Assembly (NCBI GenBank): GCA_003248075.1
Contig: QJYK01000338.1
Span: forward strand, 1-34,636
Reading direction: 5' to 3'
Source: Gemmatimonadota bacterium
GTDB lineage: Bacteria > Gemmatimonadota > Gemmatimonadetes > Longimicrobiales > Gaopeijiaceae
DNA length: 34,636 nucleotides
Positions 31,654 to 33,822 of this stretch are shown piece after piece. The stretch's first letter is position 1. Each line of letters opens with the position of its first letter. The notes under the pieces were generated by a model. The model ran no database searches. It had not been told where the DNA came from and was given only the letters and a program-made list of their open reading frames with translations. A program made the translations under genes and the position numbers.

Positions 31654-31674
31654 GACCCGGTAGCTCAGCTGGTA
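31654..31674 (+). pseudogene. 5' fragment of a tRNA gene (tRNA-Lys-like)
   Basis: These 21 bases are identical to the first 21 bases of the intact tRNA-Lys at 33750-33770 (acceptor 5' strand, D stem and part of the D loop). After that only CAACGGA (31676-31682 region) still matches. The anticodon, T arm and 3' acceptor are absent, so it cannot be a working tRNA. A possible -10-like TATCTT (31638-31643) lies just upstream, as if this were the former promoter of the tRNA. The 5' halves of several tRNA species can be alike, so Lys is the best but not the only origin. Confidence 0.75.
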
Positions 31675-31736
31675 TCCCCAACGGATCGGCCCTCGGTTGG
31701 TCCAAAGGGCCGCGCCCACTGCCCAGACGTGCCCGC

Positions 31737-33623
31737 GTGTTCGCCCTCGCGTTCGGTGTCCTAACCGGTTGCGGAGACTCCCCGTGTCCGCCTCAGGAGA
31801 TGCAGGTGCTGCCGGAGGAGTTCGACGGGAGGTACGTCGCGCGGTTGGACTCGCTCGACCTTGCGCTGGCCGCGATCGAGGCCCTTCCGCCGCATCCCGA
31901 CTCGGCTGCGGCACAGGGCGCCTTCCGGCGCGTGAGGGTGGCCTACAAGCGGGTGGAATACCTGCTCGAGTTCGAGGCCCCCGATTTCGCCGCGGCCGTC
32001 AACTCGCCGTCCGTTCCCATCGTGGACGAAGACGACTTCAGCCGCGTGATCGAGCCACACGGGCTCCAGGTGCTCGAGGCTGCCCTCTACCCGCGCCCCG
32101 TAGAGGACTTTGCCGAGGTCGCGCGTCGCGAGCTCCCCGGCCTGCGGCGCGTGATCCAAGTTGCCCGCGACAACTCCACCTACAGGGCCCGTCGAAGCTG
32201 GCCGATGCCGTTCCGGGCTGCTCGGATGGGCCTCGCCCGGGTCACGACACTCGGCATCGCGGGGTTCGACGCTACGCTGTCCGGGGATGGGATCCGCGAG
32301 TCCGCCGCGGCACTCGAGGGAATCCGGGAGGGCCTGGAGGCGTACCAGCCGGCGATGATGCAGTGTGACCCCGCCGGCTGGGAAGCGCTGCGGCGGACTC
32401 TGGACGTCGCCGTCACCGTCCTGGAGGCGTCGCCGGACTTCGAAGGCTTCGACCGGTTCGGCTTCATCGTTCACTTCGCGAGCCCCATCGCCGAGGCGCT
32501 GGCGCGCCTGCATGGTTCGCTCCGCATCCCCGAGCCCGAGGACCGCCACCCGTGGTCGCCGGGTGCGACGAACATTTACGCCGCCGGCGCGATCGACCCC
32601 CTTTGGTTCGCTCCGGACTACGCGCCGGAACCCACCCCGGAGCTGGTGGACGCCGGACGTCGCCTCTTTTTCGATACCAGGTTGTCGAGCCACGGACGGC
32701 GGTCCTGCGCGACGTGCCACCAGCCCGCACTGGCGTTCGCAGACGGGCGGCGCGTGGCGTCGCTGGATCCGGGTCCGGGACCCGTACGCAACACGCCCAG
32801 CCTGCTGAACGCCGGCTTCCAACGCGCGCAGTTCGCGGACCAGCGCTCACCGTTCCTCGAGTTCCAGTTCGAGGAGGTGATGGGAAGCCCGAGGGAGATG
32901 GCGCAGACCCCCTCCGCGGCCGCCCACCGGCTGAAGGATGACGCCACCCTCGCGGCCCAGCTCGCCGTCGGTCTCGGGACGTCGGTGGACTCGGCCGTGA
33001 CCGGCCGAACACTCTCGTTGGCGGTCGCCGCCTACGTACGCTCGCTCGTGGCCCTCGACTCCCGGTTCGACCGTGCCCTCCGCGGCGACACGGCCGCGAT
33101 CACGACGTCGGAGCGGCGCGGGTTCAACCTCTTCATGGGCAAGGCCGCCTGCGGCACCTGTCACTTCGCGCCGCTCTTCGGGGGCACCCTGCCGCCGACG
33201 TACCTTCAGCCGGAACCGGAGGTCATCGGCGTGCCGGCGGCGAGGCCGGCGATTCCGGGCGCCGCGGTGGACGACGACCCGGGGATGGTCGCCCTCACCC
33301 GCGCGCCGCTGCACCGTCATGCGTTCAAGACGTCCACGGTGCGGAATGTCGAGCTCACGGCGCCGTACATGCACAACGGCGTCTTCGAGACGCTCGAGGA
33401 AGTCGTGGACTTCTACAACGACGGCGGGGGCAACGGGCTTGGGATGCGGCTTCCGAATCAGACGCTGTCGGCCGAACCTCTGGATCTCTCCGACCGGGAG
33501 AAGCAGGATCTGGTGGCCTTCATGCGGGCCCTCACCGACAGCTCTCTCGTTGCCGTCGGTGGAAACGGCGTGGCCCCGCGCACGGGCGCGGACGGGAGGG
33601 CGTCAGCGCGTCGGCCCGAATAG
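31737..33623 (+). CDS. Di-heme cytochrome c peroxidase lipoprotein with N-terminal imelysin-like domain
   Basis: The C-terminal half is a MauG/CcpA-type di-heme peroxidase with heme motifs CATCH (C324-H328) and CGTCH (C472-H476), the conserved NTPSLLNAGF, and the distal APYMHNGVFETLEEVVDFYN. It reduces hydrogen peroxide in the periplasm or oxidises a partner. Residues about 20-290 resemble the imelysin-like helical domain (VAYKRVEYLLEFEAPDF, VIEPHGLQVLEAALYP) that is fused to such peroxidases in Bacteroidota. A lipobox LTGC is clear. The start is doubtful: GTG 31737 leaves no charged n-region. CTG 31719 would give an ideal signal (LPRRARVFALAFGVLTGC). GTG 31593 overlaps the rnhB stop but adds 48 residues that run through the tRNA fragment. 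Confidence 0.87.
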   Translation: MFALAFGVLTGCGDSPCPPQEMQVLPEEFDGRYVARLDSLDLALAAIEALPPHPDSAAAQGAFRRVRVAYKRVEYLLEFEAPDFAAAVNSPSVPIVDEDDFSRVIEPHGLQVLEAALYPRPVEDFAEVARRELPGLRRVIQVARDNSTYRARRSWPMPFRAARMGLARVTTLGIAGFDATLSGDGIRESAAALEGIREGLEAYQPAMMQCDPAGWEALRRTLDVAVTVLEASPDFEGFDRFGFIVHFASPIAEALARLHGSLRIPEPEDRHPWSPGATNIYAAGAIDPLWFAPDYAPEPTPELVDAGRRLFFDTRLSSHGRRSCATCHQPALAFADGRRVASLDPGPGPVRNTPSLLNAGFQRAQFADQRSPFLEFQFEEVMGSPREMAQTPSAAAHRLKDDATLAAQLAVGLGTSVDSAVTGRTLSLAVAAYVRSLVALDSRFDRALRGDTAAITTSERRGFNLFMGKAACGTCHFAPLFGGTLPPTYLQPEPEVIGVPAARPAIPGAAVDDDPGMVALTRAPLHRHAFKTSTVRNVELTAPYMHNGVFETLEEVVDFYNDGGGNGLGMRLPNQTLSAEPLDLSDREKQDLVAFMRALTDSSLVAVGGNGVAPRTGADGRASARRPE

Positions 33624-33749
33624 CGGTGCTTGGCCGCCCAAGTTTGAGGAGCATGGGCCACCATTCGGCCGGTCCGGTGTACACGCGAGTCTGGATCGGA
33701 TCATGTGCGTCGGAGATACTGTTTGTCGACAATCAGTTACGACATTTCC

Positions 33750-33822
33750 GACCCGGTAGCTCAGCTGGTAGAGCAACGGACTTTTAATCCGTAGGTCGTG
33801 GGTTCGAGACCCACCCGGGTCA
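33750..33822 (+). tRNA. tRNA-Lys (anticodon UUU)
   Basis: A complete 73-nt cloverleaf read by hand. Acceptor GACCCGG pairs perfectly with CCGGGTC; D stem GCTC/GAGC with AGCTGGTA loop; anticodon stem ACGGA/TCCGT with loop CTTTTAA (anticodon TTT); variable AGGTC; T stem GTGGG/CCCAC with loop TTCGAGA; discriminator A. The 3' CCA is not encoded. A perfect TTGTCGACAA palindrome (33723-33732) lies 17 bp upstream. Its first 21 bases recur at 31654. Confidence 0.97.

Follow-up and report, generated by a model that had tools for sequence, protein, structure and literature searches.

A 5' fragment of tRNA-Lys behind rnhB as the probable scar of an insertion at a tRNA gene in a Gemmatimonadota genome

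The first 21 bases of a tRNA-Lys(UUU) gene are repeated exactly 2.1 kb upstream of it, just behind the ribonuclease HII gene rnhB, and a single peroxidase gene lies between the two copies. Comparison with related genomes makes an insertion at tRNA-Lys well supported and a site-specific mechanism likely, and we hold with moderate confidence that the lone tRNA-Lys(UUU) gene, then just behind rnhB, received at its 5' end a DNA segment bearing the peroxidase gene. The scar exemplifies a well-known phenomenon in a rare form, lying at the 5' end of the tRNA, the less usual side. The window analysed here is a whole contig (C60, 34,636 nt) of an apparently metagenome-derived assembly of 344 contigs, with a genome size of 5.64 Mb and an estimated contamination of 4.65%. 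It was compared with a family set of 121 genomes, the window's own included, and with a class-wide set of 394 genomes. The features of the locus are as follows.

30946–31596 (+), stop codon included: rnhB (ribonuclease HII), the conserved gene to the left of the ancestral site of tRNA-Lys, with relatives in 107 of the 121 family genomes
31638–31643 (+): TATCTT, -10 box from the old promoter of tRNA-Lys, left behind before the fragment; CCGTATCTTG is shared with relatives
31653–31674 (+): tRNA-Lys 5' fragment, nucleotides 1–21 and the base before them, identical to the intact copy by sequence match
31675–31736 (+): new sequence past the left junction, leader of the peroxidase gene; no tRNA continuation, folding not unusual
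31737–33623 (+), start uncertain: gene of a CCP_MauG di-haem cytochrome c peroxidase that has its own N-terminal domain
33624–33749 (+): upstream region of the intact tRNA-Lys, unlike that of the fragment, with a -10-like TTACGA at 33737–33742
33750–33823 (+): intact tRNA-Lys(UUU), called by ARAGORN and Rfam, the sole copy found in the genome

The original prediction, made from the letters of the window, was that the 5' end of tRNA-Lys is duplicated without mismatch, and the match is indeed exact: GACCCGGTAGCTCAGCTGGTA occurs at 31654–31674 and at 33750–33770, while shuffled sequence gave 0 matches even when 3 mismatches were allowed. Pairwise comparison extends the identity by the preceding C to 22 nt, beyond which the copies diverge on both sides. 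A genome-wide search for tRNAs sharing this 5' sequence, proposed together with the prediction, returned only these two exact copies in the 5.64 Mb and, at 3 mismatches, one tRNA-Lys(CTT) and one tRNA-Phe. The downstream copy opens an intact tRNA-Lys(TTT) gene (75.9 bits), which over 73 nt matches the tRNA-Lys of G136, a genome of a different genus, without a difference. The upstream fragment starts 57 nt past the rnhB stop codon and was called by neither ARAGORN nor Rfam; from 31675 on the sequence does not continue as a tRNA, and no orphan 3' half of tRNA-Lys was found anywhere in the genome. A larger duplication taking in the promoter was ruled out by the upstream identity of the two copies, which amounts to 1 nt, and a functional RNA in the leader of the fragment by its ordinary folding (z 1.08) and the blank Rfam result at the fragment. 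The intact tRNA-Lys is also flanked by a 12-nt repeat, CATGGGCCACCA, at 33652–33663 and 33906–33917, of which shuffles expect 0.005 in the stretch. Farther downstream, at 34066–34635, the window holds the start of a Ser/Thr kinase gene whose dozens of near paralogues in its own genome and in G001 mark a large expanded kinase family.

The interval between rnhB and tRNA-Lys, whose comparison had been proposed with the prediction, was examined in the 72 family genomes that carry rnhB and tRNA-Lys(TTT) on one contig and strand. In 52 of them an uninterrupted tRNA-Lys lies 14–168 bp behind rnhB, the place that the fragment occupies in the window. The two genes are 0.4–33 kb apart in 19 genomes, that is, in the window and 18 others, and 654 kb apart in the one left over (G027). 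In another family of the order, the tRNA-Lys gene also follows rnhB at about 0.57 kb in G037 and, with a small gene between, at about 0.75 kb in G035. Because the linkage is found across the family and in this other one, it is old, and the fragment sits where the tRNA would be expected. Judged from these genomes, the rnhB–tRNA-Lys interval is an insertion hotspot. The closest genome, G001, lacks both rnhB and tRNA-Lys, matched the window there through kinase paralogues only, and therefore cannot serve as a same-genus empty site. None of the other interrupted family genomes has a 5' tRNA fragment behind rnhB, and a class-wide pattern search of the 394 genomes for tRNA-Lys 5' ends diverging at nucleotide 22 returned the window and one other match, in G179, which was ruled out as a second scar, being inside an open coding frame with no tRNA nearby.

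The sequences before the two copies were compared with those of relatives in the window's clade of the RnhB tree, many branches of which are weak. Before the fragment, CCGTATCTTG is identical to the tRNA-Lys upstream sequence of G021 and G117, and a TATCTT box also precedes tRNA-Lys in G014, G091, G019, G131, G126 and genus g25, in the last directly behind rnhB; the box of the fragment is 3 nt farther from the tRNA start than that of G021. The intact tRNA-Lys is preceded by GTTACGACATTTCC, with GTTACGA at the same offset as in G006, and TTAC-type boxes stand before tRNA-Lys in G006, G129, G132 and G133. Its upstream region also shows partial likeness to G106 and G130. Single promoter comparisons are of modest strength (p 0.005–0.055 by shuffling), and the pattern they form is that of an old promoter left with the fragment and a different one now standing before the intact tRNA-Lys. 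The 126 bp preceding the intact tRNA-Lys gave no significant similarity to the corresponding sequence of integrase-bearing relatives, and common descent of the two was rejected.

The gene between the copies had been read as a peroxidase lipoprotein gene filling the 2.1 kb, which agrees with a CCP_MauG di-haem cytochrome c peroxidase domain (E=5.8e-35) and a lipobox-like LTGC, yet there is no clear ATG start. The candidate GTG at 31737 leaves too little for a good lipoprotein signal, CTG at 31719 aligns with the start of a relative in G328, and no stop interrupts the frame upstream as far as a GTG at 31593, which overlaps the rnhB stop. The original prediction also held that an ancestor with tRNA-Lys directly after rnhB and without the peroxidase gene would speak for insertion; besides the 52 genomes with the direct order, a search of the other 120 family genomes at E 1e-10 left the N-terminal domain of the peroxidase unmatched. 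The best relative belongs to another family of the class (62% identity over the N-terminal domain, 67% over 598 aa), and many relatives occur in Bacteroidota at about 34–42% identity. Origin of the cargo in the surroundings of the best relative was ruled out: the similarity ends inside the coding region, and its 15-kb contig carries no tRNA. The peroxidase gene is best seen as acquired.

As had been noted from the sequence, the window has no integrase: neither PF00589 nor the tyrosine recombinase family of G106 and G130 has a match on its contig. In those two relatives, truncated tyrosine recombinases, 64% identical to each other, stand directly before the 5' end of tRNA-Lys and in the same direction (L073/L254 and L077), and G128 has decayed tyrosine recombinase pieces directly before tRNA-Lys (L074). 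Between integrase and tRNA-Lys, G106 also carries two GGGCTACACT repeats that look like arm sites. Related integrases lie on the 3' side of tRNA-Lys, facing it, in G103 and G037. The G037 element (L246, 1298–5741) spans ~4.4 kb at tRNA-Lys(UUU) and has an integrase and a 38-nt 3' duplicate, which equals tRNA nucleotides 32–69, lies 4.4 kb away, starts at CTTTTAA and is a normal attachment duplicate; by its sequence it is an ordinary integrative element of the order. Relatives of the G106 and G130 recombinases also occur at the 3' ends of tRNA-Leu and tRNA-Ser genes elsewhere in the order. As far as these loci tell, tRNA-Lys is an integration target in the order, used on its 3' side in the complete cases and marked by 5'-side relics in three genomes. 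The tie of the window to these integrases is circumstantial, because a 5' fragment behind rnhB is missing from the other interrupted genomes and the class-wide search yielded only the window and one coding sequence.

Integration at tRNA-Lys is supported by the linkage in 52 of 72 genomes, the old-type box, the 22-nt limit of identity and the cargo domain unmatched in the family, and also by the interruption of the site in 18 other genomes, the recombinase pieces at the tRNA 5' end in G106, G130 and G128, and the related integrases on the 3' side in G103 and G037. We infer that the incoming segment was small and circular and that a tyrosine recombinase joined it to the chromosome through an attachment core within nucleotides -1 to 21 of tRNA-Lys. 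The upstream copy would then be the host-side 5' fragment, keeping the old promoter, and the downstream copy would have been rebuilt from element-borne nucleotides 1–21 and native nucleotides 22–73, to be expressed from an element-borne promoter. The integrase may later have been lost, or may have acted in trans, and transcription of the peroxidase gene may now start from the stranded tRNA promoter. The earlier idea of an insertion at tRNA-Lys thus stands, on the relatives and the old-type box; as to its other half, the supply of a complete tRNA, the element may instead have brought no more than a promoter and nucleotides 1–21. More tentatively, an integrase lineage of the family might target the 5' end of tRNA-Lys(UUU), inserting cargo time after time into the gap behind rnhB; with each event the essential tRNA would gain a new promoter and the old one would be stranded before the cargo. 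The window would then be the youngest, single-gene case that still shows the scar.

Several observations count against site-specific integration. First, an integrase and a recognisable attachment arm are both missing from the window. Second, no 5' fragment occurs in the other interrupted genomes, and the region upstream of the intact tRNA is not significantly like that of the integrase-bearing relatives. Third, the same-genus G001 is unusable as an empty site. Lastly, bacterial integrases known so far rarely use the 5' side.

The interval without an integrase would also suit the arrival of linear DNA from another bacterium, carrying peroxidase, promoter and tRNA-Lys, by homologous recombination at tRNA-Lys and its downstream side and illegitimate joining at nucleotide 21 of the old tRNA. 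The match of the intact tRNA-Lys to G136 over 73 nt and an upstream box resembling those of other genera fit such a route. However, it needs a donor with the peroxidase beside tRNA-Lys, whereas no tRNA lies near the gene's best relatives, and the break inside the tRNA would be chance; we regard this route as unlikely.

A sister genus, g25, documents a different course of events. In G120 (L261) an intact tRNA-Lys follows rnhB, while in G121 (L262) and G119 (L263) an insert of roughly 250 bp, bearing a second, different, complete tRNA-Lys(UUU), interrupts the anticodon loop of the tRNA-Lys behind rnhB. The junctions read CTTTTAA on both sides in G121 and CCTTTAA on the left in G119, and the halves of the old tRNA-Lys have accumulated substitutions in both. 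G025 (L264) has a run of N at the corresponding place. The insert looks like tRNA-dependent integration made permanent. As a main rival model, the same could have happened in the window if an element had brought a complete tRNA-Lys(UUU) and split the native gene, later deletions sparing only the first 21 bases. This is observed in g25, where the native gene was split at CTTTTAA and G120 is unsplit, and phages are known to do so at tRNA-Lys-TTT (PMC10865867). For the window, however, we consider it quite improbable: the genome has no orphan 3' half, the fragment ends at nucleotide 21 and not in the anticodon loop, and nucleotides 1–21 are the same in both copies, whereas the newcomer in g25 differs from the native tRNA.

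Two further explanations hardly hold. Duplication into two tRNA-Lys genes, the first decaying by deletion and the peroxidase arriving separately, would draw on one copy being enough for nearly all family genomes, so that a second would decay, but upstream of the two copies the sequences are unrelated, with 1 nt of identity, and none of the family genomes showed two complete copies at the site, which makes it very unlikely. A false join of the assembly at the shared 21-mer is just as hard to credit: 21 is a common smallest assembly k-mer, which the repeat length equals exactly, and the genome is in 344 contigs with 4.65% estimated contamination, but the second sequence would need the 21-mer followed by non-tRNA sequence, the same puzzle again, and G+C is even across the left junction.

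Integration on the 5' side, the reading we favour, forces an element to supply the tRNA promoter, so that foreign DNA takes over the control of an essential gene, whose old promoter is left for the cargo. Bacterial 5'-side cases are rare, and through the family comparison a single scar becomes a hotspot open to testing, its integrase relics lying 5' or 3' of the tRNA, depending on the genome. The nested tRNA-Lys of g25 points to permanent traces of tRNA replacement, a process known from actinobacteriophages, in bacterial chromosomes as well. The hotspot and the relatives with nested tRNAs merit at least as much attention as the scar in the window.

Among known systems, Tycheposons combine a tyrosine recombinase beside a tRNA with a cargo island of 4–200 kb (as summarised in PMC10872708), whereas the window has 2.1 kb and no recombinase. 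Phage Fionnbharth, which shares the target isotype with the window by integrating in tRNA-Lys-TTT, splits the host tRNA while another tRNA-Lys serves (PMC10865867). It fits the g25 insert closely: in G121 and G119 both native halves remain, and the insert has a complete tRNA-Lys of its own. In the window only nucleotides 1–21 are left, no 3' half exists in the genome, the tRNA has apparently been rebuilt, the fragment ends at nucleotide 21 and there is no phage gene. The additive island fGI-2 of Methylopumilus has direct repeats of 20 nt of tRNA-Lys(ctt), called its last 20 bp (PMC10872708). The reverse complement of the repeat ACCAGCTGAGCTAATCCCCC, GGGGGATTAGCTCAGCTGGT, looks like nucleotides 1–20 of a tRNA, and these islands seem also to be of the 5' type. 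They differ from the window in phylum, anticodon and having several repeats per island, and resemble it, on this re-reading of the repeat, in using the 5' end of tRNA-Lys and in starting from 330 bp and 1 gene. In pTN3-like integration into the 5' half of archaeal tRNA genes, the promoter of the integrase drives the restored tRNA, a situation described as uncommon in bacteria (PMC8371274); the window has no integrase, yet shares the duplicated 5' part of the tRNA and a restored tRNA behind an upstream region that would be element-borne. The original prediction that a 5'-end scar is unusual is confirmed by the Islander database, in which 159 of 3919 mapped islands have a 5' tDNA fragment (PMC4383910). 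With 2.1 kb, one gene and no integrase between fragment and tRNA, the window would fail the integrase filter of that database. It is like the 5'-type islands in its length of >2 kb, its cargo and its 5' fragment upstream of an intact tRNA, and by the rule of the database (PMC4383910) the exact end fragment from nucleotide 1, upstream of the intact tRNA and oriented like it, argues for reading it as an island of the 5' type.
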